Assembly (NCBI GenBank): GCA_018241505.1
Contig: JAFEDS010000024.1
Location: 122,252-186,251, forward strand
Reading direction: 5' to 3'
DNA length: 64,000 bases
Source: Pseudomonadota bacterium
GTDB lineage: Bacteria; Pseudomonadota; Gammaproteobacteria; Steroidobacterales; Steroidobacteraceae
Below are positions 40,845-64,000 of the stretch, in pieces. The translations under genes and the position numbers were made by a program. Numbering within the stretch: the stretch's first letter is position 1; the number at the start of each line of letters is the position of its first letter. The notes under the pieces are model-generated. The model made no database searches. It had not been told where the DNA came from and saw only the letters and a list, made by a program, of their open reading frames with translations.

Positions 40845-41039
40845 GACGCTCCCGAGGCCTTTTCGCCGCCGGCGGAACGGCTTTATGTCATATCTGCGCG
40901 ACAGCACTCACACTTTGGTCTTGAATAGCGGCCAGCGACCCCCTACAGCGGTAGACTGCCACCCAGAACTATACGAATCAGGGGATTGGGCACGGATGGC
41001 CGGGACTGTCCGGGAAATGCCCGCGCGAGGAGAAATGCG

Positions 41040-44863: not shown

Positions 44864-46381
44864 GTGGCCAGTCCGTACATTGAACGAATCCTCAAAGCAC
44901 GTGTGTACGAGGTGGCTGTCGAATCACCGCTCGAGGAAGCCGGCCGCCTGTCACGGAGGCTCAACAACCAGGTCCTGCTGAAGCGCGAGGATCTGCAGTC
45001 GGTTTTCTCCTTCAAGCTCAGGGGCGCCTACAACCGCATTGCGAACCTTTCGGCAGAAAACGCCGGCCGGGGCGCTGTCTGTGCATCAGCGGGCAATCAC
45101 GCTCAGGGCGTAGCGCTTGCGGCCAGGCGCCGCGGAATTCCGGCCGTCATTGTGATGCCCCAGACCACACCGCAAATCAAAGTGCAGGCGGTGCAGGATC
45201 TGGGCGCGGAAGTGGTTCTGCACGGCGACGACTATGACAGCGCGTACGATCGCGCGCTGACACTCGCGCGCGAGCGCGATCTGACATTCGTACATCCATT
45301 CGACGATCCGGATGTCATTGCCGGGCAGGGCACCGTCGGCGTTGAAATCCTGCGGCAGACCGGCGGTCATGTTGATGCGATATTCGTGCCGATCGGTGGC
45401 GGTGGGCTCATCGCCGGCATCGCCGTGTATGTGAAGTATCTATACCCCAACGTCCGGGTCATTGGTGTTGAGCCGGAGGACGCCGCCAGCATGTATGAGT
45501 CGCTGCGCGCCGGTAAGCGAGTGACCCTCGATCGTGTGGGTATCTTCGCGGATGGCGTTGCTGTCAAGCGGGTGGGCGAAGAGACGTTTGCCCTGTGTCG
45601 CAGCTATGTCGATGAGATCCTGCTGGTCGACACCGACGAGATCTGCGCTGCGATCCAGGATGTGTTCGAAGACACGCGCTCCATTGTCGAGCCCGCCGGT
45701 GCGCTCGCGGTCGCCGGAGTGAAAAAGTATGTCGCGCGCGAGAATTGCGGCGGCAAGCGCTTTGTGGCGGTCAACAGCGGCGCCAACATGAACTTCGACC
45801 GGCTGCGCCACGTGGCGGAGCGCGCCGACCTGGGGGCCGGGCGCGAGGCGCTGCTGTCAGTTGTGATTCCGGAAGTGCCGGGCAGCTTCCTGCGCTTCTG
45901 CGAAACGTTCGGGCAACGCAATGTGACTGAATTCAACTACCGGTATGAGGCCGCGCAGGCCGCCCAGATCTTTGTGGGCTTCAATCTGTCCCGGGGCGGC
46001 ACTGAGCGGCGCGAAGTAGTACAGGCCCTGCGCGCGGCGGACTACACCGTGACCGATGTCAGCGACAACGAAGTCGCCAAGCTCCACGTGCGCTACATGA
46101 TCGGCGGTCATGCGCGCGGCCTGCAGAACGAGCTGCTGTATCGCTTTGAGTTTCCGGAGCGGCCGGGCGCCATGTTGAAATTCCTGCGCGCCATCGGCTC
46201 ACGCTGGAACATCAGCCTGTTTCACTACCGCAACCACGGGTCAGACTATGGTCGCGTACTGGCCGGCATCCAGGTCCCGGAAGCCGAGCGCGCCGACTTC
46301 ATGTTGCATCTGAACGAGCTGCACTACGCGTACGTGGAAGAGACCGACAATCCGGCCTACAAGCTGTTCCTCGGCGCGTAA
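44864..46381 (+). CDS. ilvA: Threonine ammonia-lyase, biosynthetic (threonine deaminase)
   Basis: The 505-aa PLP enzyme converts threonine to 2-oxobutyrate, the entry step to isoleucine. The PLP-binding Lys is in SVFSFKLRGAYN near residue 50, the Gly-rich loop is IFVPIGGGGLIAGIA and the Ser/Gly region is VNSGANMNFDRL. The C-terminal third has two ACT-like regulatory domains (about 325-405 and 420-495), as in the isoleucine-inhibited enzyme, and the full length matches. The start is GTG with AAGAGA upstream. It lies far from ilvB and ilvN in the same window. Confidence 0.94.
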   Translation: MASPYIERILKARVYEVAVESPLEEAGRLSRRLNNQVLLKREDLQSVFSFKLRGAYNRIANLSAENAGRGAVCASAGNHAQGVALAARRRGIPAVIVMPQTTPQIKVQAVQDLGAEVVLHGDDYDSAYDRALTLARERDLTFVHPFDDPDVIAGQGTVGVEILRQTGGHVDAIFVPIGGGGLIAGIAVYVKYLYPNVRVIGVEPEDAASMYESLRAGKRVTLDRVGIFADGVAVKRVGEETFALCRSYVDEILLVDTDEICAAIQDVFEDTRSIVEPAGALAVAGVKKYVARENCGGKRFVAVNSGANMNFDRLRHVAERADLGAGREALLSVVIPEVPGSFLRFCETFGQRNVTEFNYRYEAAQAAQIFVGFNLSRGGTERREVVQALRAADYTVTDVSDNEVAKLHVRYMIGGHARGLQNELLYRFEFPERPGAMLKFLRAIGSRWNISLFHYRNHGSDYGRVLAGIQVPEAERADFMLHLNELHYAYVEETDNPAYKLFLGA

Positions 46382-46384
46382 CGC

Positions 46385-46753
46385 CTACTTGATCAGCCGC
46401 AGCGTGAACGGATAGCGGTAGCGGACCCCTTCGGAGGCCTTGATGCCGGCGATGATGGTCATGGCCAGCCAGTATATGAACAGGGCGACGCCGAGCAGTA
46501 TGCCGATGAACACAAACACCAGCACGCCGCAGACGCAGCCGGCCAACAACACTGAAATGTTGAAGTTCAGGCCCTCCTTGCCCTGGTCGGCCACGAAGGG
46601 CGACTCGTCGCGCTTCACGAGCCAGACAATCAGCGGTCCGAGCACGGAGCCCAGCGGAATGAGGAAGCCGGAGAAGGCGGTGAGATGCGCGAGCATTCCC
46701 CAGGTTTTCTCATCCTGGGTGGGCACGCCGGCAACCGGGTTCGGCTCGTTCAT
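46385..46753 (-). CDS. DUF4870 domain membrane protein
   Basis: The 122-aa protein has the DUF4870 pattern: WGMLAHLTAFSGFLIPLGSV, FVADQGKEGLNFNISV, then two further hydrophobic segments and a YRYPFTLRLIK end. It should have three or four membrane helices. Its function is unknown. GGAG lies 8 nt before the ATG at 46753; a GTG three codons earlier is a possible start. It faces ilvA tail to tail with a 3-bp gap, and is divergent from the hydrolase gene. Confidence 0.85.
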   Translation of the reverse strand: MNEPNPVAGVPTQDEKTWGMLAHLTAFSGFLIPLGSVLGPLIVWLVKRDESPFVADQGKEGLNFNISVLLAGCVCGVLVFVFIGILLGVALFIYWLAMTIIAGIKASEGVRYRYPFTLRLIK

Positions 46754-46780
46754 GGACGTCACTCCGAAAGGGAGGTGCCG

Positions 46781-47671
46781 GTGACGTATACACTATTGCG
46801 AACTCCACGGCACGCCGAAGTCAGTGTCCGGGGTCTCAAACACCGCCTGACATGGTGGGGCCCGCCCTCGGCTGAGCCGATTGTGATGCTCCACGGGTTC
46901 CAGGATTGCGGTGACACCTGGCAGTTCCTGGTGGACTGTCTGCCCGAAGACTGGTCGTTGGTGGCCCCGGATTGGCGCGGCTTCGGCGGCACCGACCGGG
47001 CCCCGGGCGGTTATTGGTTTCCCAACTATCTGGCCGACCTCGAGGCACTGCTCGAGCAACTCGTGCCTGAGTCGCCGGCAAGGATCATCTCGCACAGCAT
47101 GGGAGCCAATGTCGCCGGCTTGTATGCCGGAATTCGCCCGCAACGGCTGCAGTGGTTGGTCAACCTGGAGGGCATCGGCCTGCGCAGGACTTCACCTGAG
47201 ACCGCGCCTGATCGTTATGCCGAGTGGCTGGATGAGATCCGTGAGCCGTTGGTGGAGGGACGATATGAGTCGGTGCAGCAACTTGCTGAGGTGTTGATGA
47301 GGCGCAATCCGCGACTGACAGCGGATCGGGCACATTTCGTTGCGCGTGCGTGGACTCGTCAGGCGCAGGACCCGGAAGGTGGCGTGCGCCTGGCGTTTGA
47401 TCCGCGGCATCGGTATGTCAACCCGGTTTTATATCGCCGCGAAGAGGCGGAGGCGTGTTGGGCACGGGTGCAGGTCCCGATGTTGCTCGTGGCCGGTGAA
47501 AGCTCCGGCCACCAGGAGCGCCGCCTGGCGGATTTCAATGATGAGTACGTCAAGCGGATGTTCCGTGACGTGAAGATTGTGACGCTACCGGGACTAGGAC
47601 ACATGATGCACCACGAAGACCCGTGCGCTGTCGCCGCGGCTATCCTGGAGTTCACGAGGACCCGGCCATGA
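46781..47671 (+). CDS. Alpha/beta hydrolase
   Basis: The 296-aa protein is a complete alpha/beta hydrolase: oxyanion region VMLHGFQDCGDTW, then VAPDWRGFGGTDRAP, nucleophile Ser in ISHSMGANVAGLYA, an acidic residue in the later core and catalytic His in PGLGHMMHHEDP. The first Gly of the elbow is Ser (SHSMG). The GTG at 46781 has GGGAGG 5 nt upstream. Its stop codon overlaps the cobU start by ATGA, so it is coupled to a cobalamin-loop gene. It may act on an ester or lactone; a role in corrinoid handling is only suggested by position. Confidence 0.83.
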   Translation: MTYTLLRTPRHAEVSVRGLKHRLTWWGPPSAEPIVMLHGFQDCGDTWQFLVDCLPEDWSLVAPDWRGFGGTDRAPGGYWFPNYLADLEALLEQLVPESPARIISHSMGANVAGLYAGIRPQRLQWLVNLEGIGLRRTSPETAPDRYAEWLDEIREPLVEGRYESVQQLAEVLMRRNPRLTADRAHFVARAWTRQAQDPEGGVRLAFDPRHRYVNPVLYRREEAEACWARVQVPMLLVAGESSGHQERRLADFNDEYVKRMFRDVKIVTLPGLGHMMHHEDPCAVAAAILEFTRTRP

Positions 47672-52217: not shown

Positions 52218-54642
52218 ATGGGAAGTGAAGGAGCGGGGGCACAGGAGGCGGGAAACGGGTTTCTACAGAACCCGACGGCTGCATTTGTTCCGTCGGACTT
52301 CCGCCGCCTGGCGGAGCACCTTCCCCATATGGTGTGGATCTGTAAGCCGGACGGCACGCTCGACTACTTGAATTCCCACGGGGTGAATTATTTCGGTGTG
52401 AGACTGCGTGACTCACTGGCGCTGTTTCCCTCCGGGGGCATTGCGCATCCCGACGATCGCGAGGGCGCGGGCGCGGCCTGGAGACGAGCACTCCAGGCGC
52501 GGAAGGCGCTCAGCCTGGAGACACGGCTTCTGCGTGCGGACGGCGTGTTTCGCTGGCACTCGATAGAAGCCGAGCCCGTATTGGACGAGCAGGGACAAAT
52601 TATCAAGTGGATGGGCACGTCGACGAACGTGCATAGCACCCACGAGGGTGATGAGCTCTCCGCCTTCCTGCTCGAGATGTCGACTGACTTTGCGCGCATC
52701 GACAATCCTCACGAGCTCGTCTCAACGGCGATGCTCCGGTTGCGCCAGTACCTCGGGGCGGCGCAAGTCACACTGGCCGAGTTCGATGACGAGCACGGCC
52801 AGGTTGTCATGCTCAGGCAGGATCGCTCCGACAGTCCCAACCTGCAGGTAGTCGCCCTTCCCCTCGGGCCGTTTAGCAGCCTCACTGTGGAGGCGCGTAA
52901 GGGACAGACAACGGTCCTGGACGATGTACCGAAGGACGAGCCGCACGCGAGCTTCTTCAACCGTTGGTACGGTCTCGGGCATGTCGGAGCTGTAGTATCG
53001 GCTCCGCTGCTGTATGGTGGGAAACTCGTTGCCTCATTGAGCGTGGCCGAAGAAACCCCGCACCACTGGAGCATGCCTGAAGTTGAAATAACACGCCGGG
53101 TGGCGGAGTTGGTCTGGCCGGCGCTGGAAAAGGCGAGGTCCGAGCATGCATTGGCGGTCAGTGAGGAGCGGCTGCGACTGGCGCAGGCCGTGGCCGAGGT
53201 CGGCGCCTGGGAGTTGGATCCGGACGCCCGCAGCGTGCACTTCTCGGCCGAGGCTCATGAGTTGTTCGGGCTCGCCGACAGCGGCCGGACCAACCTCTAC
53301 CAGGTTTGGGTCAGTCTGATCGATGCGCGCGACGCTCAGGCGTTGCAGGAGCTGATTGAGGCCTGCAACCGGTTGGGAACCGCCGAAGCGGAGTATCGCT
53401 ATCGCCATCCGACCCGCGGGTTGCGCTGGATACACACGCGCGCCGGACGTGTCGATGATGAGGCACCCAGGCTGATTGTCGGTATCAGCATGGATGTGAC
53501 GGAGCGACGCAAGGCCGAAGAGGCGCTGAAGGACGTCAATCATCAGAACCGAGTTTTTGGCGATGCTGGCTCACGAGCTGCGCAATCCACTGGCGCCGAT
53601 CCGCAATGCCGCCGAGGTGCTGCGCTCTCACGCAACTGGAATACCCGAGCTCGAGTGGGCCCGTACCGTCATTGAGCGTCAGACCCGGCACCTGGTGCGC
53701 CTGGTGGATGACCTGTTGGATGTGTCGCGGATGGTGCGCGGGAAGATTGTTCTCAAGAAGGCCCCTGTTGAGATTGCCGAGCTGGTGCAGCACGCAGTCG
53801 ATACGAGCCAACCGCTGATCCGCGCGCGCCGCCATCAGCTTCATGTCAGTTGCCCGCCCGGCAAGCTGGCGATCGAAGGGGACTTGACCCGCCTGGCACA
53901 GGTCTTGTCCAACCTGTTGAACAACGCAGCGAAGTACACGGACGAAGGCGGCCAGATCTGGCTGGACGTGCGGCTGGAAGGCAGCGAAGTGGTTTTCCGG
54001 GTCCGCGATAGCGGCCCCGGTATTTCATACAAACTGTTGCCTCACGTGTTTGATCTGTTCACCCAGGCCGAGCGCACGCTCGATCGCGCCCAGGGTGGTT
54101 TGGGGATCGGGCTCACACTCGTCAAGCTCCTGGTGGAGATGCACGGCGGCGCGGTGGAGGCGCGGAATTCCGAGTGCGGGTCCGGTGCCGAGTTCATGGT
54201 GCGGCTGCCGGCCAACCCGCAAAGGCTCGTGCCGCAAGCGACTGACCGGGCTGCAGCCGGCGCTGAAACGAGCGCTGAGCGGCCGTTGAAGGTGCTCGTC
54301 GTGGACGATAACGTTGACGCCGCCGACAGTGTTGCCTTGTTGCTGAACATTGATGGCTTCGACGCGCGAAGTGTGCATGGCGCGCTGGCCGCGCTCGACA
54401 CGGTCCACTCCTTCAAGCCCGATATCGTGCTGCTCGACATTGGTTTGCCCGTCATGGATGGCTATGAAGTGGCGCGGCGCCTGCGGACCGACAATACGAT
54501 TGAGCGCATGCGGATTGTCGCGCTGAGCGGCTACGGACAGCGGGCGGATCGTGAGCGCGCGACCCAGGCCGGGTTTGATGAATACCTGGTGAAGCCCGTG
54601 GAACCCACGGCACTGAGCGAGTTCCTGCGGGCTTTGCAATAG
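52218..54642 (+). pseudogene. PAS-GAF-PAS hybrid histidine kinase, interrupted by a frameshift
   Basis: Two adjoining reading frames encode one kinase. The first (52218-53675) holds a PAS domain (about residues 28-135), a GAF domain (about 150-310) and a second PAS domain (about 318-430). It leaves frame at about 53549-53550, where AACCGAG stands in place of AACGAG: dropping one C restores NEFLAMLAHELRNPLAPIR. The second frame (open from about 53551 to 54642) has the HisKA box, HATPase motifs (NLLNNAAKYTD, DSGPGI, GGLGIGLTL) and a C-terminal receiver with its Asp in IVLLDIGLPVMDGYE. Joined, the protein would be about 807 aa. Either the gene is broken, or the sequence has an error there, or ribosomes shift. 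Confidence 0.82.
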
Positions 54643-54651
54643 GCAGTGCGT

Positions 54652-57558
54652 CTATTGCCGCTTGTAGTTGACCCCCAGGAAATACCACCGCCCGCGGTTG
54701 TCATAGACTGATGTAGTCACCCCGGTTGCAGCGCCGACCTCGGGAATGATCGGCGGATGAGCGTTGGTGACATTGATCGCGCCAGCCCGGACGGATAGCG
54801 AATCATTGACCTTGTAGGTCGCGTGCAGGTCGTGCTCCCAATAGCTGCCGGTGTAGAACGGCGTGAGGGCAGTCTGCGCCAGGGTCTCGCTGACCGCCAT
54901 CGAGCTGTACCAGTGGGATTCCCAGCGAAAGACGAAATCCCGCAAATCCCAGCCGATCGAACCATTGAGCTTGTAGCGCGGCGTCGCGGAGTTGACTCCG
55001 GTCAGTACGCCTGCGTAGTGGGTAGTGGCGCCGCCGGGAACACCCTGCAGGTCCCAGCGGATGATTTTCGTTCCGTCCAGCCTGAATTGATACAGGCCGA
55101 GCGACTTGGCGTCGAAGTGATAGGACAAGGACGTGTCGATACCACTCGTTTTCAGCGCCTGCACGTTTTGATTGGTCAGCTCGACGTAGGTGGCAGCTCC
55201 CGTGGCATCCCGGTGGATGAGGCCGCAGAACTTGTTCGCGTTGTAGCTCTCCGCAGAGTCATAGCAGAGATTCTGTAACAGGGTGTTGATGGGAATCGTG
55301 GAAATGGCACCGTCGACGTTGATCAGCCAGTAGTCGGTGGAGAATTCCAGGCTCCTCAGCCAGCGTGGTTGGATCACAAATCCGGCGGTGTAGGTTCTGG
55401 CGACCTCGGCGGCGAGATTCGGGTTGCCGCCCTGCAGTAGCGCCAGGGATGGCCGGCCGACTCCGAAATTGGAAGAGAAGGTTGCCGGATTGTAGCCGGG
55501 GATCGCCGCGGTGCAATTAGCGATGCGCCTGGTACGCCGTGCGGTGTCGCTTGCGGGAATGCCGGCTATCTGAGCCGCATCACACGGGTCATCGGCCACG
55601 TTTGTAAAGTTCTGGCCCTGTGGCCCGTAAAGCTCCGCGATGTTGGGTGCACGCACAGCGGACGCGTCGCTCGCGCGAAACCGCACATCGTCGACGGGTG
55701 CCCACTCCAACGCGAGGCGCCATTGATTGGTGTGCCCCACTGTCGAGTAGCTACCCAACCTGCCGGCAGCCTCAAAGCTCAGTTGCTGAGCAAAGGGCAG
55801 GTTCTTGAGCAGGGGGATGGCGATTTCGGCGTAGCCTTCCGAGAGGTGGTATTTGCCCTGGGTGCGGCCGATGGCGTTGTAGAAGAGAGCGCCGCTGGCT
55901 GACAGCGGGTCCTGGATCTGATCGCTCGTTTCATTGCGGAATTCGCCGCCTATCGCCAGTCCCAACGGTCCGGCCGGCAGGTCAAACAGAGAAGTGCTCA
56001 AGTTCGCCGCGGCGATGGTTTGATTGGCCATGCCATTGGAACGCGCGTTGGCGTTGGCCCAGGAGACGGCCGCGGCCGAGGGGCCGTTGATCAGATCCCA
56101 GGGCTGGCAGCCCGCGGCCCGCGCTGCGGCGTCCCGACAGACAATCTGGCCGCCGACCTGGACCGCATCCAGCTCCTGCAGCGTCCTTTTGATGTTGGGC
56201 ACGTTGAAGCCGAGCGAGTAGCCATCGAGCTCACCGTACTGACCGTACACCTCGTAGTCGGCCTTGCGGCCCAGCCAGTTGAATTTGCCCTGGATTCCCG
56301 CCACCGCGCGATAGTTCTCGCGGACCGTGTCAGTGTCACGGTCGCCGAACTCCTGCCAGAATTTGCCGACGTTCACGGTACTGGCCTGTGTGAGCGGCAG
56401 ACCCGCGCCGGTCCAGAATCCACGCAACTGTGTGTCCAGTGCCGTGGAGCCGTTGAGATAGGCATTGTCACCATGAATGACGGCCGGCAGCGTGCCGCCG
56501 CCCAGCGCATTCGAAAAGGCCGGCTGGAAAATGCCGAAGCCATCCACGTGTGCGTAGGAAATGTCGGTGTAAAGAGTGACATTGTCGGTCAGGTCAAATC
56601 CCAGGTAGCTGCGGGCGGTCGCCCGCTTCACGCCGCCTTGCAGTGCGTTATAGGAATTGGCGTAGAACAGATCGGAGTCCTGGCACAGGGCGTTGACGGT
56701 CGCGGTACGACACAGGGCGCTGTTTTCAAACACACTGCCGCGATCGAGCGCAATGGAAGCGGAACGCGCGATCGCGGGATTGCCGCTGTTGATCAACTGG
56801 AACGTGGCGGTCGGCATGGTGTTGGATCGTGATTGCGGCACCACGGTCTGGCTGGCGAGCGAGGTATTGCGGCGCACACCCGGGAAGGCCCAATCCCGAT
56901 CCACCTGCATGATGGGATCCGCCTTGGTGTATTCCGCGCCGATGAGAAAGTGCGCGCGCTCGTTGGCAAAATTGAAGCCATACCCGGCGGAAGCCGTCCA
57001 CTCGCCGCCGTCGTTCTTGTCCGTCTGGCCGCCTTGCACATCCAGCACCAGGCCTTGCATTTTTTTGCGCAGGATGATGTTGACCACGCCGGCGATGGCC
57101 TCCGAGCCATAAACAGCCGAGGCGCCGCCTGAGATCGCTTCAATGCGCTCGACCATGCTGGAGGGAATCACGTTCAAGTCGACGGCGGATGTCTGAAAGT
57201 CGCCGGTTACGTGACGGCGGCCATCCACCAGGACGAGTGTTCGCTGGGTGCCGAGGCCGCGCAGGTTGGCCCGCGACTGCCCCGCGTTGAATAGAGTGCC
57301 GGAGGTGTTTTGAATGCCGGTTGTGGCGAGCGCTTGCGGCAGGTTGGCGAGCGCGTCGCCGATGGCGGTGTAACCGCTGTCACGTATGTCATCCCCGCCG
57401 ATGACGGCAACGGGAACGGGGTAGTCGAAGCCGCTGTCGCGTTTGATACGGCTTCCGGTAACCACGACCTCCTGGATGGATGTTGGTTCTTCGGCGGCGG
57501 CTGTCATTGCCTGTAGCAACACAACACCAACCACCAGCGCAGTCCTTTGACAGCCCAT
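54652..57558 (-). CDS. TonB-dependent outer-membrane receptor
   Basis: The 968-aa receptor has a signal peptide (to about residue 23, TAAAEE), a TonB box-like start (IQEVVVTGSRI), a plug domain (about 45-160; NLRGLGTQRTLVLVDGRR, and SGGASAVYGSEAIAGVVNII) and a 22-strand-type barrel ending in WYFLGVNYKRQ. The plug style is that of the large family of oligopeptide, sugar or lipid receptors common in Xanthomonadales-like bacteria; the ligand is unknown. GGAGG lies 7 nt before the ATG at 57558. No TonB, transporter or degradative genes adjoin it. Confidence 0.92.
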   Translation of the reverse strand: MGCQRTALVVGVVLLQAMTAAAEEPTSIQEVVVTGSRIKRDSGFDYPVPVAVIGGDDIRDSGYTAIGDALANLPQALATTGIQNTSGTLFNAGQSRANLRGLGTQRTLVLVDGRRHVTGDFQTSAVDLNVIPSSMVERIEAISGGASAVYGSEAIAGVVNIILRKKMQGLVLDVQGGQTDKNDGGEWTASAGYGFNFANERAHFLIGAEYTKADPIMQVDRDWAFPGVRRNTSLASQTVVPQSRSNTMPTATFQLINSGNPAIARSASIALDRGSVFENSALCRTATVNALCQDSDLFYANSYNALQGGVKRATARSYLGFDLTDNVTLYTDISYAHVDGFGIFQPAFSNALGGGTLPAVIHGDNAYLNGSTALDTQLRGFWTGAGLPLTQASTVNVGKFWQEFGDRDTDTVRENYRAVAGIQGKFNWLGRKADYEVYGQYGELDGYSLGFNVPNIKRTLQELDAVQVGGQIVCRDAAARAAGCQPWDLINGPSAAAVSWANANARSNGMANQTIAAANLSTSLFDLPAGPLGLAIGGEFRNETSDQIQDPLSASGALFYNAIGRTQGKYHLSEGYAEIAIPLLKNLPFAQQLSFEAAGRLGSYSTVGHTNQWRLALEWAPVDDVRFRASDASAVRAPNIAELYGPQGQNFTNVADDPCDAAQIAGIPASDTARRTRRIANCTAAIPGYNPATFSSNFGVGRPSLALLQGGNPNLAAEVARTYTAGFVIQPRWLRSLEFSTDYWLINVDGAISTIPINTLLQNLCYDSAESYNANKFCGLIHRDATGAATYVELTNQNVQALKTSGIDTSLSYHFDAKSLGLYQFRLDGTKIIRWDLQGVPGGATTHYAGVLTGVNSATPRYKLNGSIGWDLRDFVFRWESHWYSSMAVSETLAQTALTPFYTGSYWEHDLHATYKVNDSLSVRAGAINVTNAHPPIIPEVGAATGVTTSVYDNRGRWYFLGVNYKRQ

Positions 57559-57739
57559 GGCGCGTCCTCCCTGTGGTTGTGACTGTAACGAGTTGTTATC
57601 GGTTTGAGTGTCAAGGGAACGAGTAAAATCGTTCATGCCCGTGCTTGGGTGCGGGCGCCGGGGGGCGGTGGCATACTGGTGACAAGAGGGGCCCGGGGAG
57701 AGTAGGGCCTGTCGCGGTTGCTTCGAACCGGGAATAGCC

Positions 57740-58459
57740 ATGCATGGCCTAGGTTTCGGGTCTCACTGCTCCTGCGCCTTCGCGGTCGTCTTCCTGGTGT
57801 CAGGATGCATGCAAGCGCGCGTGGACGAGTCCCGGGAGCTTCATACCCGAATCCAGAAGGACGAGGCGGTTGTGATACTCGCGAAGCCCCAGGTAGAAGG
57901 GGCCAGTGCCGAGGATCCGTTCATGCATTGTGTCGCGGCGGGATTGGGCGGCCGCGACGGGGCTATTGCGACACGAACGGACGAGCAGTTCACCGACGCC
58001 TTATTTCCGTGGTTCGAACCTGGCACTGCACCTACGAAGCCTGAAGGTGTCGCCACTTTGTTAACGCGGCCGGGCGTAGCGGAACGAGTGGCGGCGTCCG
58101 GTGTCCGCTATGTCGTCTGGCTTGAAGGTGGTACCCAAAAGACAGATGGCGGCGGAAGCCTCGCCTGTGGAGCATCTCCAGGTGTGGCCGGCTGCATCGG
58201 ATTCGGATGGTGGGAGAAGGAGGCGAACTACGAGGCCACCATCTGGGACCTCAAGAAGGCGAAATCAGCGGGCAGCGTAGGAACAAGTGTGACTGGAACG
58301 TCGGCCGTGATCGGGGCCGTCGTACCGCTACCGTTTATTGCGCGTGTGCAGGGCACCGCGTGTAACCGGATGGCGAGCCAGCTTCGTACTTTCTTTACGG
58401 GTAGCGATGACGAAGTACCTGCGCGGGCCATCGCGCAGGTCAAGACGGGTAGGAAATGA
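57740..58459 (+). CDS. Lipoprotein of unknown function (kinase-locus gene 1)
   Basis: The 239-aa product has a lipoprotein signal (VVFLVSGCMQAR, Cys near residue 23). The mature part looks mixed alpha/beta, with EAVVILAKPQVEG, GVRYVVWLEGGTQ and a glycine-rich stretch near residue 180 (GTSAVIGAVVPLPFI), a pattern recalling CsgG or LpoB-like periplasmic folds. Two extra Cys pairs may form disulfides. It begins a run of overlapping genes that ends with a Ser/Thr kinase. Its stop overlaps the next start by ATGA. No family is recognised. Confidence 0.65.
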   Translation: MHGLGFGSHCSCAFAVVFLVSGCMQARVDESRELHTRIQKDEAVVILAKPQVEGASAEDPFMHCVAAGLGGRDGAIATRTDEQFTDALFPWFEPGTAPTKPEGVATLLTRPGVAERVAASGVRYVVWLEGGTQKTDGGGSLACGASPGVAGCIGFGWWEKEANYEATIWDLKKAKSAGSVGTSVTGTSAVIGAVVPLPFIARVQGTACNRMASQLRTFFTGSDDEVPARAIAQVKTGRK

Positions 58460-59235
58460 GGTTGGGTTATCGGGGCTACATTGCGTTTGGGATGCTCGCA
58501 ACCGCCATGGCGATGGTGGCGGCTGGTGGCTGCGTGACGCATCCGCCGGTTGCTGCGTCCGTCGCCAACTCACAGCCCATGAAATCGGCGTCTCGCGTGA
58601 CCGGCGACGGCCGTGTGCCGGATGGCGCGCCTTCGCCGGGCGGGACAGGCTCGGGGCCTGGGGCAACCACGGCGCCGCCGGCAACTGCGGCGTCTGCGGC
58701 GACCGGGGCGTCTGCGGCGACCGGGGCGTCTGCGGCGATCGGGGCGTCTGCGGCGACCGGGGCGTCTGCGGTGACCGGGGCGTCTGCGGCGACCGGGGCG
58801 TCTGCGGCACTACCGCCAGTGGCGACGCGACCAACGTCGGACGAGCGCCGCGCGGCCCTCGACAAACAACTCGATGCCTCGCTCGATGCGTTCGATGCGC
58901 GGCTGCGGCAAGAGCAGCAGAAGATCGCCGAGGATCGCGATGCCCGCCAGGCCACTGTTGCGGCCACGACCACTTCGGCTTCGGGGAATGGCACTGAGGC
59001 GGGAGTTCAGGCGCGGGCCGAACGTCCCGGGGACTTGAAATCAGACAAGAGCGTCGGCGCCATTGCGAACGTCGCCGGCAATGGCGCCCCCGCCACTGTC
59101 ATTCCGGACGGCAACGATGACGACATCGTTGCGCGTCGATTGCGAAAAGCCGCTGACCAGGAAACCGATCCAGAGCTGAAGGACAAGCTTTGGAAGGAAT
59201 ATGTCCAATACAAGAAAAATACCCAGGTGCGATGA
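58456..59235 (+). CDS. Lipoprotein with tandem Ala/Ser/Gly/Thr hexapeptides (kinase-locus gene 2)
   Basis: The 259-aa product has a lipobox (MVAAGGCVTHP, Cys near residue 26), a Gly/Pro-rich spacer, about 6.7 tandem copies of A-S-A-A-T-G (residues about 79-118), and a charged helical C-terminus (about 130-170 and 205-259). The repeat is exact at DNA level in most units (see separate entry). The helical end, RRLRKAADQETDPELKDKLW, could pack as a coiled coil. It overlaps gene 1 by 4 bp and ends 27 bp before gene 3. Function unknown. Confidence 0.65.
   Translation: MRLGYRGYIAFGMLATAMAMVAAGGCVTHPPVAASVANSQPMKSASRVTGDGRVPDGAPSPGGTGSGPGATTAPPATAASAATGASAATGASAAIGASAATGASAVTGASAATGASAALPPVATRPTSDERRAALDKQLDASLDAFDARLRQEQQKIAEDRDARQATVAATTTSASGNGTEAGVQARAERPGDLKSDKSVGAIANVAGNGAPATVIPDGNDDDIVARRLRKAADQETDPELKDKLWKEYVQYKKNTQVR
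58690..58809 (+). repeat. 18-bp tandem repeat array inside the lipoprotein gene
   Basis: Six full units of GCGTCTGCGGCGACCGGG plus a 12-base partial one, with single-base changes in the third (ATC for ACC) and fifth (GTG for GCG). Units are in frame and encode the hexapeptide A-S-A-A-T-G. Such identity suggests recent slippage, so copy number may vary between strains. Confidence 0.9.
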
Positions 59236-59262
59236 GGTCACTGAGGCTTACAGGTGACTACA

Positions 59263-60522
59263 ATGGGAACGGCGATCCGGGTGATGGCGTGCTGGGCAGC
59301 GCTGGCCACAATGGTGGCGGGCTGTGTCGTTCGCGAAAGCAGGCCGCTTACCAGGATCAACGCAACGCAGGCCAGCAGCGAAATTCCCGAAGATGAATTG
59401 CTGGATGTGGCCGTGCATGCATTTGATCCCGGCGTACCGGCCGAGATCGCGAAAAATGAACAAGCGCTGAACAAGAAGCGCATATACCCCGATATCCGCC
59501 AGGCGGAGTCACGTTATGTTGCAACGATGTTGCGCACGACGCTGGAGACCTCGGGCCAGTGGGGAGCGGTACGGGTATGCCCGGAGAACGTGCAGTTCGT
59601 TGATGTGTCAGTATCAGGCAAAATCATCGAGTCCACGGGAGCAAAGCTTGCTCTCCAGGTTACGGTCAAGGATTCGATGGGACACGTCTGGCTGAACAAC
59701 AAGCTGTACGCGAGCTCGGCGGACACAGGGTCTTATAAGACGGATGCGGCGTTGAAGGCACGCGATCCGTTCCAGAACGTTTATTCGGAGGTGGCGAACG
59801 ATATGCTGACCGCGCGCGAGGCACTCACTGCGCAGAACCGCCGCGATATTCGTCGAGTGACGCAACTCGAATTCGCGAAGGATCTGGCACCGCAGGCGAT
59901 GGACGGCTACCTCGGTCGCGATCAGAAGGGTTTTGTGCGAGTCACACGACTGCCGGCTACTGATGATCCAATCAGTAGTCGAATCGATCGCATCCGACAG
60001 CGCGACTCGGGCGTTGTAGATACTGTGAACGGGTATTATGCGAGCTTCGCTGACCAGATGACTGAGTCATACGGGCAGTGGCGGCGCGCCAGCTTCCAGG
60101 AGATTGAGAAGGAGCAGCGCACGCTCAACCAGGCGCGGACCCGCACATATCTGGGTGCGGCCGCGGTAGTTGCGAGTGTTTTCGTACCACAACAGTGCGG
60201 CTTGTATGACTACAACTGCCGCCGCCTCTCAACGGGTGTGCGAACGGCTGCTGCGATTGGTGGCGCTGCGTCCATTTTATCGGGATTGAAGAAATACTCC
60301 GACGCGAAGACGCACGCCCAGGCATTGAAGGAGCTTTCAGAGTCCTTTCAGAACGATGTGGCTCCACAAGTTGTGGATGTGGAGGGCCGGACGCTGAAGC
60401 TGACCGGCACGGCGGAAGAGCAATATCGCGAGTGGCGTGAGCTGCTGCATCAAATGTATTTGGAAGACCGTGGTCTACCGAGCGATGAGTTGAACAATCA
60501 GGGCTCGCGGGACCCTAACTGA
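59263..60522 (+). CDS. Lipoprotein of unknown function (kinase-locus gene 3)
   Basis: The 419-aa product has a lipobox (ATMVAGCVVRE, Cys near residue 21). The middle part (about 85-190) has VRVCPENVQFVDVSVSGKII and KDSMGHVWLNNKLYASSADT, a pattern of alternating strands like LpoB/CsgG-type periplasmic proteins. A helical region follows, with one hydrophobic stretch (residues about 300-315) and a charged C-terminus. The ATG at 59263 has AGGTG upstream; the GTG at 59254 with GAGG before it is equally possible. It ends 3 bp before the kinase start. No family is recognised. Confidence 0.65.
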   Translation: MGTAIRVMACWAALATMVAGCVVRESRPLTRINATQASSEIPEDELLDVAVHAFDPGVPAEIAKNEQALNKKRIYPDIRQAESRYVATMLRTTLETSGQWGAVRVCPENVQFVDVSVSGKIIESTGAKLALQVTVKDSMGHVWLNNKLYASSADTGSYKTDAALKARDPFQNVYSEVANDMLTAREALTAQNRRDIRRVTQLEFAKDLAPQAMDGYLGRDQKGFVRVTRLPATDDPISSRIDRIRQRDSGVVDTVNGYYASFADQMTESYGQWRRASFQEIEKEQRTLNQARTRTYLGAAAVVASVFVPQQCGLYDYNCRRLSTGVRTAAAIGGAASILSGLKKYSDAKTHAQALKELSESFQNDVAPQVVDVEGRTLKLTGTAEEQYREWRELLHQMYLEDRGLPSDELNNQGSRDPN

Positions 60523-60525
60523 TCT

Positions 60526-63500
60526 ATGACTGAGACGGTTGAGACAATTCTGGGCAAGATGCTCGATGCTCGTTACACGCTCCTGGACAAGCTGGGAGCG
60601 GGCGGGCAGGGCGAAGTTTGGCGCGCCCACGATGCCGAGCGTGGAGTTGACGTTGCACTCAAGGTGCTGACTCCCAAGACGCGCGAGAACGAAGCGTGGA
60701 GCGCGCTCGAGCACGAGTACGCGATTGCGAGCTTGTTGGATCATCCGTCCATTCTCAAGGTGTACCCGCCTGAACGCTCCGGCGAAGCGATGATTCTGCC
60801 GATGGAGCTTGCGCCCGGTGGCGATCTTCGCCGCCTGCGTGGCGCCGGGTTTCTCGAAATCATTCCGGTGTTGCTCGAAATCTCGCAGGCGCTCGAGCAC
60901 GCACACGAGCGTGGCGTTGTTCACCGTGATTTAAAGCCCGGCAATATCCTGTTTGACGCCCGCGGCCGCGCAAAGCTCGCTGATTTCGGCGTTGCTGAAA
61001 CGGCGATGACTGATGAGGGGGCGCCAAGCACGGCGTCTTCCGCGGTTCCGACACGGGATACAAACAAGCACGGGTATTCACCGTTTACTGCAAGTCCGGC
61101 GCAATTGCGCGGTGAGCCGCCAACTCCCGCGGACGATGTATATGGACTCGGAGCACTTGCGTACGAGTTGCTGTCCGGCTACCCGCCGTACTATCCGCAC
61201 TTCGACAAGAAGCGTGCGATGGAAGAGCGTGTTCCGACTCTTGCTCCAACACGGCAGATTCCGCCGTTGCTTGGCACCCTGGTCATGCATATGTTGGCGA
61301 AAGATCCAAAGCGACGACCGCGCACGATGCGCGCCGTCATCGATGAATTGGATGCTTCGCTCAACGATACGCTGACATACGATTTCGAGAATGTGTCGCC
61401 GGCTACGCCGACTGGATCTGCTGCCGTTGTGGCTGCGGCGGAAGCCGCTGCAGCGAGGTCAGCCGCTGCGCGAGCGAGCGACACCACCGCCATCGATACG
61501 TCCGCAAAGCCCTGGACGCCCGGCAGCGGTGATCGAAGATCGCGGGCTGACCGGCGCGGGCGGCGCAAGGAAGACTTCGCGCCCGAATCAGACACTGATT
61601 CAGGTGGCCGTCGATCCACCGACAATTCCGCTGATGACGGTTCGCGTTCATCGCGCCGGCCGGGTGCTGACGCTCTGGCGCGCATCGACGCGGCGCTCGA
61701 GCGATCGGCAAGTTCGACGTCTGACACTGGTTCGCATCGCAAGCCTTCACAGGACGCGACCCGTCCTTGGGAGTCGACTAGTAGCACGGGGACGCACCGG
61801 ACCGCGGACACGGGCTCGCATCGGGTGCCGCCAGGCAACTCGAACTCGGCAGCGGATACCGGTTCGCACCGGACTGTTGATACTGGTTCGCACCGGGTAC
61901 CGCCGGGCGTGTCGAGCTCGACAGCGGACACCGGTTCGCACCGGACTGCTGACACCGGTTCGCACCGGGTCCCCTCGGGCTCGGCTGGTGACACAGGTTC
62001 GCATCGAGCGCTAACGGGCAAGTCGAACTCGGTAGCGGACACTGGCTCGCACCGGACTGCTGATACTGGTTCGCATCGGGTGCCGCTAGGCGCGTCGGGC
62101 TCGGCAGGGGACACCGGCTCGCATCGGACATCCGACACTGGGTCGCATTTGAAGCCGACAGCGAACGGCGCGCCATCGACGAGCGATACCGGTTCGCGCC
62201 CTCGGCCTTCTGTCGGCGCACCAGCTTACGAGCCGACGATCAAAATCCGGTCTCCGTTCCTACAATCCAATGACGGAAGCAGATCGAGGTCTTCTCATTT
62301 CATGTCGGAGACCTCCGGATCGCTAGGTCGGCCGAAGTCCGGGCCGCCGCCGAGCCCAAAACCTCCACCGGTCGACGTCTTCCGATCGAAGGGGCAGTCT
62401 TCTCCGATGACGCCTGCGGAAGCGGCGGCAATTGTCGCTGCAGCTCGCGCGGCTGCGAAGGCTGAGGCGGCGAAGAGTGAGAGAGGAGCCAAGGCCGACC
62501 CCGACCGCACAGCGATATTGGACCGCGGCCTCAAAGCTGACACCGACACGTCACAAACAGTGGCGCTGCCGCCCCTTAGCTGGGACACATCCAAGACCGT
62601 AGCGCTACCGCCACTGGCGCCCGACTATGTGCCTCCGGAGTTCCGTGAGCCGCAGCCAGACCGCCAGCAGCCTGAACGTCAGCAGACCGAACGCCAGCGG
62701 ACGGAGCGTCAGCAGACTGAGCGTCAGCAACCGGAACAACGCGCGGCGCAAACCGCTGCGCGATCGCCATCGGCCGCTAGCGGGTCTGACACAGCTATAT
62801 TGCCGACTCCTGCGAACACGACGGACCTGTCCAAGACAATGGTGTTGCCGCCACTGTCTCCAGACTTCGTGCCGCCGGAATTTCGCGACGAGCAGCAACA
62901 GCGTCCGAGTCTGACAGCAGCACGCGCTGCATTGTGGAACCGTAACCCCGAGTCTGGCAACGCGCCCGCGTCCTCGCGTGTGGGTGACAGTTCCAAGACG
63001 GTGGCGCTGCCTCCGCTTCCCGCGGACTACGTACCGACAGAATTCCGCAACGATCCGGATTCCACCACGCCGCAGTCGACGGCATCGCGTGAATTGACAC
63101 CGCCGCCTTTGGCCCCCACGAGCCCAATGTGGCCCATTGAAGGCAAGGCGGCTGCTGCTGCGCGCACGTCGAGCTCAACTGCGTCCACTGTGAAGCAGCC
63201 GACGGAATCCGCGGCGCCGAAACAGCAGCCCAGGAAGACTGAGCCTGTCATCCACGGGCCGCAGCCAACCTTCAAGCACGATAACGTGACGATTGGCACG
63301 TACCCCGATCCAACATCGACCCTTACGCGCGACACTGTTGTTCAGTCTGCGCCGATGCCTGTGAAGTGGGATGACGTCCGGCTGGACGAGTTGCCAAAAG
63401 TGTCACGCCTCGAGCCCATCCAGCCGCGTCGATGGCCGTGGGTTGTGTTGGGATTGGCAGCGGGCGCGGCTGCTGCCGTGTATTTCTGGCTGCCGCGATT

Positions 63501-64000
63501 TGATACGCAAGACCTGCCGCCCGAAGTTGCTGCCGTGGTGGAGCCGTTGAAGACCGCGATCGCGGCTAACTCACCGGGTGCTGACACACACACGCCTGCT
63601 TCGCTGACCGTTGGCACGCCGACGGCTGGTTCGCCAGAGGATGGTGCGCAGCGCGCCGGTCAGGTGGACGCTTCTGCGCCGGTCGCGGGCGCCTCCTCCC
63701 CTGGCGTGCCGGCTGGTGGCGTGAGAGTGGCGAGCCCTGGGGCGTCTGATGACGCAGCGGCTGGGAATGCGGCGTCGCCTGCTGTGGCACCGGGCGGCGC
63801 GAGCGGCACGACGACCGCAGGTGCGGCGGGCGGTGTAGGCGCCACCGGCGGCGCAGCGGCTGGAGGTGCGGCGGCAAGCGGACGCACGGCATCAACAGGG
63901 CCCACGGCGGCAGGTGGGCGCACGGCGTCAACAGGGCCCACGGCGGCGGGCGGACGGTCGCCGTCAACAGGATCCGCGGCGTCGGGCGGCGCGGCGGCAG
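60526..64000 (+). CDS. Ser/Thr protein kinase with repeat-rich linker and one membrane helix (partial)
   Basis: The frame is open for 1158 codons and leaves the window. Residues about 17-285 form a complete Hanks-type kinase: LGAGGQGEVW, VALKVL with the ATP Lys46, HRDLKPGN at 133-140 and DFGV at 153. A long cytoplasmic linker holds ten DTGSHR repeats (residues 400-555) and repeated TVALPPL-type motifs (about 674-845). A membrane helix follows near 970-988 (WVVLGLAAGAAAAVYFWLP), then a Gly/Ala/Ser/Thr-rich outer segment. It starts 3 bp after a lipoprotein gene, so the kinase and the three lipoproteins before it form one transcription unit. No PASTA or other known sensor domain is visible in the part seen. 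Confidence 0.88.
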   Translation, partial: MTETVETILGKMLDARYTLLDKLGAGGQGEVWRAHDAERGVDVALKVLTPKTRENEAWSALEHEYAIASLLDHPSILKVYPPERSGEAMILPMELAPGGDLRRLRGAGFLEIIPVLLEISQALEHAHERGVVHRDLKPGNILFDARGRAKLADFGVAETAMTDEGAPSTASSAVPTRDTNKHGYSPFTASPAQLRGEPPTPADDVYGLGALAYELLSGYPPYYPHFDKKRAMEERVPTLAPTRQIPPLLGTLVMHMLAKDPKRRPRTMRAVIDELDASLNDTLTYDFENVSPATPTGSAAVVAAAEAAAARSAAARASDTTAIDTSAKPWTPGSGDRRSRADRRGRRKEDFAPESDTDSGGRRSTDNSADDGSRSSRRPGADALARIDAALERSASSTSDTGSHRKPSQDATRPWESTSSTGTHRTADTGSHRVPPGNSNSAADTGSHRTVDTGSHRVPPGVSSSTADTGSHRTADTGSHRVPSGSAGDTGSHRALTGKSNSVADTGSHRTADTGSHRVPLGASGSAGDTGSHRTSDTGSHLKPTANGAPSTSDTGSRPRPSVGAPAYEPTIKIRSPFLQSNDGSRSRSSHFMSETSGSLGRPKSGPPPSPKPPPVDVFRSKGQSSPMTPAEAAAIVAAARAAAKAEAAKSERGAKADPDRTAILDRGLKADTDTSQTVALPPLSWDTSKTVALPPLAPDYVPPEFREPQPDRQQPERQQTERQRTERQQTERQQPEQRAAQTAARSPSAASGSDTAILPTPANTTDLSKTMVLPPLSPDFVPPEFRDEQQQRPSLTAARAALWNRNPESGNAPASSRVGDSSKTVALPPLPADYVPTEFRNDPDSTTPQSTASRELTPPPLAPTSPMWPIEGKAAAAARTSSSTASTVKQPTESAAPKQQPRKTEPVIHGPQPTFKHDNVTIGTYPDPTSTLTRDTVVQSAPMPVKWDDVRLDELPKVSRLEPIQPRRWPWVVLGLAAGAAAAVYFWLPRFDTQDLPPEVAAVVEPLKTAIAANSPGADTHTPASLTVGTPTAGSPEDGAQRAGQVDASAPVAGASSPGVPAGGVRVASPGASDDAAAGNAASPAVAPGGASGTTTAGAAGGVGATGGAAAGGAAASGRTASTGPTAAGGRTASTGPTAAGGRSPSTGSAASGGAAA
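61723..62202 (+). repeat. DTGSHR coding repeats within the kinase linker
   Basis: Ten exact copies of the peptide Asp-Thr-Gly-Ser-His-Arg and three variants (TGTHR, DTGSHL, DTGSRP) are spread over residues 400-559, often as pairs joined by TA, TV or VPPG-type spacers. Codons differ between copies, so the peptide is conserved more than the DNA. Confidence 0.88.
62545..63060 (+). repeat. T-V-A-L-P-P-L coding repeats within the kinase linker
   Basis: Four copies of a (S/T)-(K/Q)-T-(V/M)-(A/V)-L-P-P-L motif, three of them followed by D-(Y/F)-V-P-x-E-F-R, with an additional TAIL motif before and between. Each has Thr with Leu three places later, the form favoured by FHA domains when the Thr is phosphorylated. 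Confidence 0.75.

Follow-up and report, generated by a model that had tools for sequence, protein, structure and literature searches.

Lipoproteins and a Hanks-type kinase of a Steroidobacteraceae locus as parts of a larger, probably proton-driven envelope machine

Four genes close a 64,000-nucleotide stretch of Steroidobacteraceae DNA (assembly GCA_018241505.1, contig JAFEDS010000024.1, positions 122,252–186,251 of the forward strand; hereafter the window, or G000:C16:122252-186251, G000 being its own genome and C16 the contig that carries it). They encode three lipoproteins (lpp1–lpp3) and a large Ser/Thr kinase, and the question they raise is whether lipoproteins and kinase make up a signalling module by themselves, as proposed in an initial annotation made from the sequence, or belong to something larger. 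We find that they do belong together, but within what appears to be a larger envelope machine, the core of which needs no kinase. In the counts below, genus, order, class and phylum are those of the window's source genome.

The open reading frames (ORFs) of all four genes, on the + strand, were confirmed as annotated. The first, lpp1 (57740..58459), encodes a lipoprotein of 239 amino acids with its lipobox cysteine at position 23 (VSGC) and a predicted PelC/CsgG/TolB-N-like fold with a long β-hairpin. The lpp2 protein (58456..59235; 259 amino acids, Cys26 in a weak AGGC box) has a GASAATGASA tandem repeat in its middle and a conserved C-terminus of ~45 amino acids (DDIVARRLRKAA..ETDPELKDKLWKEYVQYK). 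The lpp3 protein (59254..60522, or from an ATG at 59263; 422 or 419 amino acids, Cys24, VAGC) consists of an α/β domain and a long helical hairpin (mature residues 216–356), with a EGRTLKLTGTAEEQYREW motif at its C-terminus. The three cysteines were assigned by motif; for lpp1 the lipobox pattern, which is blind to forms such as LPGC, matched 27 of 32 rows. As the annotation had it, the lipoproteins match no useful Pfam or NCBIfam family, the best hit being FlxA on lpp2 (E 0.041). The fourth gene (60526..64000; 1158 amino acids, still open at the window end) encodes a Hanks-type kinase domain (60574..61335; Pfam Pkinase, E 2.4e-37, residues 17–270) with the Lys (ALK), HRD and DFG motifs, the motif stretches reading GAGGQG, ALKVL, HRDLKPGN and DFGVAE. 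A long repeat-rich linker and a single hydrophobic membrane-type helix (63439..63495, near residue 972) follow, and the sequence after the helix is taken as periplasmic. Spacing is tight throughout: lpp1 and lpp2 share an ATGA overlap, lpp2 and lpp3 are 18 or 27 bp apart depending on the start, and 3 bp separate lpp3 from the kinase gene. A scan of positions 57500–60600 for sigma-70 promoters found none (0.8 expected by chance).

The gene order is conserved well beyond this genome. A scan of GTDB genomes for lpp3 gave 32 loci, and with loci from further genomes a total of 87 was examined for gene order, collinearity being counted only over loci in which both neighbours were recognised. The annotated genes stay together, and the lipoproteins are conserved as such: in 81 of 81 loci the gene after lpp2 is lpp3, and in 83 of 83 the one after lpp3 is the kinase/TPR gene, which was not recognised in 4 loci. 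Collinearity then continues past the kinase, from the TPR gene to a gene for an FGE-domain protein (81/81; not found in 2), from the FGE gene to a channel gene (68/72), from the channel gene to the first of two von Willebrand factor A (vWA) genes, VWA1 (65/66), and from VWA1 to VWA2 (67/72; four of the exceptions are cut by a contig end, and G047 is without VWA2). For the steps from lpp2 to lpp3 and from lpp3 to the kinase/TPR gene, this arrangement is far beyond chance. Nor is the set a curiosity of one genome, since its marker, lpp3, was detected across the order in 266 of 396 genomes (among good genomes, in 152 of 232); of 369 genomes drawn across the class 27 have it, four of them from the order. 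Its distribution within the genus is uneven, with lpp3 in 3 of 36 other genomes, several of them incomplete.

The window holds only the front part of this set. Contig C16 stops at the last base of the window, within an Ala/Gly repeat, and the kinase gene is thus truncated. The own match to the next gene of a close relative is located near the end of a second contig, C25. This C25 end (locus L091) starts inside the same Ala/Gly repeat of the kinase (63762..63910; 96.6% identity over 149 nucleotides) and holds the C-terminal part of the kinase gene, with TPR and PEGA-like sequence, and then six further cluster genes. The first of these encodes a protein of 821 amino acids in which four PEGA stretches are combined with an FGE-sulfatase domain, and the second a small protein with a single hydrophobic helix. 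There follow, in order, the genes for a 509-amino acid protein, here called X, with a C-terminal FHA domain; VWA1 (366 amino acids); VWA2 (327 amino acids); and a fourth lipoprotein, lpp4 (221 amino acids). Because the nearest relative of the kinase protein (L043, the same record as G005) has the whole as one gene of 1421 amino acids, we infer that C16 and C25 adjoin, and the contigs are kept unjoined here. The full set is lpp1-lpp2-lpp3-[kinase-membrane helix-TPR]-[FHA-like/PEGA/FGE]-small-[X-FHA]-VWA1-VWA2-lpp4 plus a TolQ/ExbB-like channel. The initial description of a four-gene locus was thus right about the genes and too narrow about the set. The N-terminal part of X looks Hsp70/actin-like by eye; Pfam HSP70 matched in 1 of 11 X proteins (E 5.6e-4), and a PDB match to DnaK was weak (E 0.48).

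What decides whether the kinase defines this set is its fate outside the order. We compared 24 such loci: 17 class loci (of 23 lpp3 hits outside the order) and seven found through a channel search across the phylum (of 15 hits other than our own; five of the seven are from the 13 of family f220), both chosen for their flanking sequence. Pfam Pkinase was found in none of the 24 TPR proteins, which are short (259–560 amino acids; three of the 24 TPR ORFs count as short, namely those of L107, L109 and a broken copy in L106), and no kinase match occurred anywhere in the 17 class loci. X is either absent there or without FHA, with 0 of 11 X proteins giving a Pfam FHA match; an apparent X match in L110 is an unrelated upstream ORF and was excluded. 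The five f220 loci run lpp2-lpp3-TPR-FGE-ExbB-VWA1-VWA2, without X and without a cluster kinase. The kinase domain is also missing from some loci inside the order. Relatives of the lipoprotein genes are thus commonly found without a kinase domain, which the annotation itself had named as refuting evidence, and the proposal that lipoproteins and kinase together form a signalling module is not supported. Read as an envelope-signalling unit complete in itself, with downstream genes that lie next to it but serve other functions, the module draws on the tight spacing of the four genes and on their conservation within the order. It is weakened by the lipoproteins that occur without a kinase domain outside the order and by the step from TPR to FGE gene, which is as strictly collinear as those among the first genes, and we regard it as highly improbable. 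Since the TPR half and the PEGA/FGE, TolQ-like and paired vWA proteins remain where the kinase is gone, the lipoproteins belong to an envelope set of the proton-motor type. Kinase and FHA domain, with counts of 0/24 and 0/11 outside the order, look instead like a control layer and not like the defining partner of the lipoproteins.

The constant part of the set has the features of a proton-driven motor. Most relatives have, between their FGE and X-FHA genes, one that belongs to the MotA/TolQ/ExbB family (Pfam E 3.4e-14; profile against TolQ of the PDB, E 0.008), and its product has invariant Thr187, Thr210 and Thr220 (23 rows). The window's own genome has one operon-type copy of this channel, on another contig (C42:175895-176677, 47% identity). 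In a profile search of 15 chosen genomes, an operon-type channel was found in 8 of 9 that are lpp3-positive and in none of 6 lpp3-negative ones of the genus; the positive genome in which it was missed, G373, is 81% complete. All eight channels are unlinked, lying on a contig other than that of lpp3 or, in G250, 1.4 Mb off. VWA1 and VWA2 share an N-terminal helix (FSLSFLDxxxCGFGAxxLL) whose Asp (Asp14) is the same in all 30 aligned rows. Behind the helix come a coiled coil and then a vWA domain, in which the metal ion-dependent adhesion site (MIDAS) motif DxSxS is likewise intact in 30 of 30 rows. Our VWA1 matches Pfam VWA (E 3.4e-7); VWA2 has no such match and was assigned by family alignment. 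At least one member of the pair is present in 9 of the same 9 lpp3-positive genomes (in G353 as one partial match, at the end of a contig), and members occur in 1 of 11 lpp3-negative genomes of the genus (G258). No Pfam match to ExbD/TolR was obtained among 5 window proteins, 8 from L063 and L043, and 10 from L086, L087 and L091.

These channel and vWA features match the paired TPH-vWA motors that a computational study of 2025 described (PMC12204202, Mol Biol Evol), and the motor core is therefore already known in print. As given in the main text there, the paired motors have, as here, a TolQ-like channel, two different vWA proteins and a TolR/ExbD-like helix with a conserved Asp; they occur in Proteobacteria, no tolR or exbD was seen in the cluster, and their function is stated to be unknown. 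The difference lies in the partners. The passage on the paired family in PMC12204202 names no lipoproteins, and its main text, taken apart from the Fig. 4c drawing and the supplement, contains no occurrence of kinase, formylglycine, sulfatase or PEGA, and 'FHA' only inside FhaC; the control layer and the set of lipoproteins, TPR protein and PEGA/FGE protein are added here. Literature searches combining the kinase, FHA, FGE and PEGA parts returned no description besides the vWA/TolQ core of PMC12204202. In the parts of the text considered, PMC7159879, on MoxR-vWA systems, has no occurrence of MotA or TolQ, and PMC12505986 and PMC9389320 have none of vWA.

The set shares the channel family and lipoproteins with Tol-Pal, and the N-domain of lpp3 may weakly resemble that of TolB. 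Pfam scans of the cluster proteins gave no TolA/TonB, TolB propeller or OmpA/Pal match; a TolA_bind_tri hit on a VWA2 coiled coil was below threshold (E 0.0071). The own genome has a TolB_N gene apart from the cluster, on C42, with a TolQ-like gene 1.6 kb away, and the machine is therefore additional to the genome's own Tol-Pal. We also observed that the machine's unlinked channel gene lies on the same contig, ~20 kb from these TolQ-like and TolB_N genes (C42:153379-176677).

We consider it probable that the set encodes a trans-envelope complex driven by the proton-motive force, of the TolQ/ExbB–TolR/ExbD kind, with a phospho-switch specific to the order. The lipoproteins would be its outer-membrane parts and the kinase protein its regulatory subunit in the inner membrane. 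A TolQ/ExbB-like pentamer would surround the transmembrane helices of VWA1 and VWA2, giving a 5:2-type stoichiometry to judge from the family and from the main text of PMC12204202. The invariant Asp of these helices would take protons, and the periplasmic coiled coils with their MIDAS-type vWA heads would move or grip the TPR half and the PEGA/FGE protein, from which motion would be relayed to lpp1–lpp4 in the outer membrane. In the order, an active-looking Hanks kinase is fused to what would be the cytoplasmic end of the TPR protein, and X carries an FHA domain with the SRxH and N signature of phosphothreonine reading, so that FHA recognition of phosphothreonine made by the kinase may act as a switch on assembly or activity, whichever the direction of control.

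The predicted place of the lipoproteins follows from their first mature residues. Lipoproteins without Asp right after the lipidated Cys are as a rule sorted to the outer membrane, and since none of our four has Asp in that position, lpp1–lpp4 are predicted to reside there. The annotation had also noted LpoB/CsgG-like strand patterns in two lipoproteins. For lpp1 this is supported at the level of the fold by a model built from 27 sequences (mean predicted local distance difference test score, pLDDT, 66), which Foldseek matched best to PelC (E 3.6e-6), followed by HpaA, FlgT, CsgG (E 2e-3) and LptE; the predicted fold is accordingly of the PelC/CsgG/LpoB/TolB-N class, and the PDB gave no sequence match (best E 0.19). 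The second case is weak. The lpp3 model (31 sequences, pLDDT 78; two helices of 72 and 60 residues) matched TolB chains best, at E 5.6e-3 (probability 1.00, template modelling score 0.21), which falls short of a safe threshold, with none at E 0.001, and its N-domain may weakly resemble that of TolB.

The FGE domain and the fold of lpp1 suggest another possibility, a secretion or surface-motility system like the type IX secretion system (T9SS) and gliding proteins GldKLMN, in which the motor would drive an assembly of FGE fold and the lipoproteins would be part of an outer-membrane exit or track. CsgG forms rings, and lpp1 resembles both it and PelC, a ring-forming lipoprotein and a dodecamer according to PDB titles. 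In the PDB, PorK/GldK chains are among the matches of the FGE domain (E 1.9e-15), the two systems would have in common a 5:2-type proton motor and an FGE-fold protein on the periplasmic or outer-membrane side, and passages in PMC8986121 and PMC9389320 describe GldK/PorK as motor-linked ring proteins of the T9SS. However, FGE-fold proteins are diverse, with our domain aligning also to PvdO and more strongly to true FGE (E 1.8e-18); the same Foldseek list for lpp1 contains the non-pore proteins LptE, FlgT and HpaA; and Pfam scans of the cluster proteins gave no translocon barrel and no GldL or GldM family. The motor proteins differ as well, and the protein that carries FGE here has PEGA domains together with an FHA-like N-terminus and is not a lipoprotein. 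We judge this reading decidedly unlikely. The FGE domain itself is probably a binding domain, because the stretch of human FGE with two Cys (cyrYRCAAR), the catalytic cysteine pair near the C-terminus, aligns to a Cys-free stretch in ours.

Inside the order the control layer is found in most loci, with the kinase fused or directly adjacent to the TPR part and the SRxH/N signature on the FHA domain of X. In 44 of 45 loci the best kinase match retains the Lys, the catalytic-loop Asp and the DFx Asp; in this count the matches of G039 and G051 are separate downstream kinases, and two locus pairs are the same record. Kinase and FHA largely come and go together: across 61 loci, 45 have both, none the kinase only, one FHA only (L120) and 15 neither, and with a missing X coded as lacking FHA the figures are 45, 0, 1 and 26 of 72. 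The 61-row table omits 24 of 85 tree rows that are without one of the two traits. G005 and G033 (the same records as L043 and L040), OWNc25, L106 and short lpp3 fragments were not included; X proteins below 320 amino acids or cut by a region end (L069, L119) were left uncoded, and for the window itself the presence of kinase and FHA was entered by hand. An X alignment from which 3 of 34 candidates were left out (L069, L118, L119) and to which our own X was added has FHA in 32 of 32, which we do not use as evidence because it is a chosen set; the omitted L118 is truly without FHA. Among loci of the order, G048 has neither kinase domain nor X, L131 has no kinase and an X without FHA, and G043 has a degenerate kinase and no Pfam FHA on X. 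Three class-level loci without a kinase and with no X found (L096, L098, L099) fall within the order's part of a quick lpp3 tree and may be losses or transfers.

The kinase linker was also considered as a set of conserved FHA-docking sites. Ten DTGSHR units (61723..62127) and four [ST]xT(V/M)(A/V)LPP units (62551..63015), the latter candidate phosphothreonine sites, make our kinase as repeat-rich as the annotation stated, but the repeats are not conserved. Neither DTGSHR nor the looser DTG[SA][HR] occurs in any of 5 relatives checked, and a TVALP-like pattern gave a single match, in one of the 5 (L044, cut by its contig). The docking idea was dropped.

The presence of a kinase and an FHA domain beside lipoproteins recalls the threonine-phosphorylation pathway of type VI secretion (T6SS), TagQRST-PpkA-Fha-PppA. 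On such a reading, the lipoproteins and the FGE domain would sense an event at the envelope and activate the kinase, the vWA and TolQ-like parts would be the mechanics of the sensor and not a working machine, and target phosphorylation would be the output. In the T6SS pathway TagR is a protein of FGE type, and PpkA includes a vWA domain. The same kinds of parts thus recur, namely a lipoprotein, an FGE-like periplasmic protein, a Hanks kinase, FHA and vWA. For the H1-T6SS, passages in PMC6657622 set out the outer-membrane lipoprotein TagQ, the periplasmic TagR, the PpkA kinase and Fha. The intact active-site motifs in 44 of the 45 best kinase matches fit a sensor of this type too. Against it stand the core without kinase in 24 of 24 loci outside the order, a TolQ-type channel in the place of TagST that is retained even when unlinked, and the lack of a sheath gene: the VipB/TssC family is absent from G000 (93.9% complete), while a control search found it in E. 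coli. Membership in the T6SS pathway itself was dropped on account of the missing VipB and the kinase-free relatives, and a sensor of this type we hold to be unlikely.

Several observations weigh against the proton-driven complex with a phospho-switch. In the cluster lpp1 and lpp4 are not constant and their position is variable, lpp1 preceding lpp2 in 30 of 44 loci and lpp4 and lpp1 being paired elsewhere in 12, and the models of lpp1 (pLDDT 66) and lpp3 (pLDDT 78, best match E 5.6e-3) are modest. The lineage of the window is without a cluster-linked channel. On the side of the switch, phylogeny reduces the kinase/FHA table to four independent pairs, of which three agree and one is neutral (sign test, p 0.25); because the loci are related and allow only these four comparisons, the co-loss is suggestive but falls short of proof. 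In L118 and G039 a separate downstream kinase occurs together with an X without FHA (the G039 TPR protein retains a 45-bit kinase remnant that gives no Pfam kinase match), and L120 has FHA on X without a fused kinase, its kinase being a separate nearby gene. An FHA-like domain on the FGE protein occurs in 3 of 16 class-level loci that are without any kinase; the FHA-like N-terminus of our own FGE protein has no Pfam FHA match, and for want of such a match and of any tracking of the kinase this domain is not counted as a phospho-reader. Lastly, the lpp3-negative G258 (L168–L169, G258:C196:25700-60000) keeps the kinase/TPR protein (Pkinase, E 1.9e-35), X-FHA (FHA, E 3.2e-14), VWA1, VWA2 and a short lpp2 of 187 amino acids; lpp1, lpp3, lpp4 and the channel were not found within the 34 kb examined, beyond which the channel was not sought. 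The inner half can thus persist in the absence of the outer one, and the lipoproteins cannot be essential to the inner part. The PEGA protein of G258 (538 amino acids) has four PEGA stretches and no FGE domain; that three lipoproteins and the FGE domain are lost jointly would, in this single case, be consistent with a direct connection between them.

We tentatively put forward the set as a possible new class of trans-envelope machine. Its proton motor, headed by vWA domains, would act through TPR, PEGA and FGE-fold adaptors to pull on four outer-membrane lipoproteins; in one large order it would be gated by a kinase and an FHA reader of its own, which would make it a 5:2 motor under direct Ser/Thr-phosphorylation control. 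What is new is the set of partners and the phospho-layer, the motor core being known already. The comparison supplies the motor described in the main text of PMC12204202 with likely partners, namely lipoproteins, TPR protein and PEGA/FGE protein, and so makes its outer-membrane end testable. The order itself provides a natural experiment, in that an envelope motor is accompanied by a kinase and an FHA reader which some lineages lack, and whether Ser/Thr phosphorylation controls such a proton-driven machine becomes directly testable.

Further observations concern the copies of the cluster and the surroundings of the window's own. In L106 (G591:C1:1831200-1851000) lpp3 has an internal stop and only lpp3 and TPR fragments were recognised in 19.8 kb; this is a decaying copy of the cluster. 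Two records of metagenome-assembled genomes titled Klebsiella pneumoniae (L052, L059) contain the cluster, with 55–57% identity to the window's lpp3, and their names look wrong because both group with the loci of the order in the lpp3 tree. G000 itself measures 7.88 Mb with 5.67% contamination, compared with 2–5 Mb for most genomes of its genus, and the assembly may include foreign contigs. Upstream of the cluster in ~12 relatives are genes similar to a threonine dehydratase gene (44864-46381) and an alpha/beta hydrolase-like gene (46685-47671) of the window, and synteny may reach beyond the genes of the machine. About 15 kb upstream of our cluster, positions 40986-43229 encode a 747-amino acid coiled-coil protein with a C-terminal FHA domain (E 7.5e-19), a possible further phospho-reader. 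Nearer to the cluster, a PAS/GAF ORF (52218-53675) overlaps a HisKA/HATPase/REC ORF (53557-54642) by ~120 bp in a different frame; together they look like one hybrid histidine kinase split by a frameshift, either real or an assembly error.

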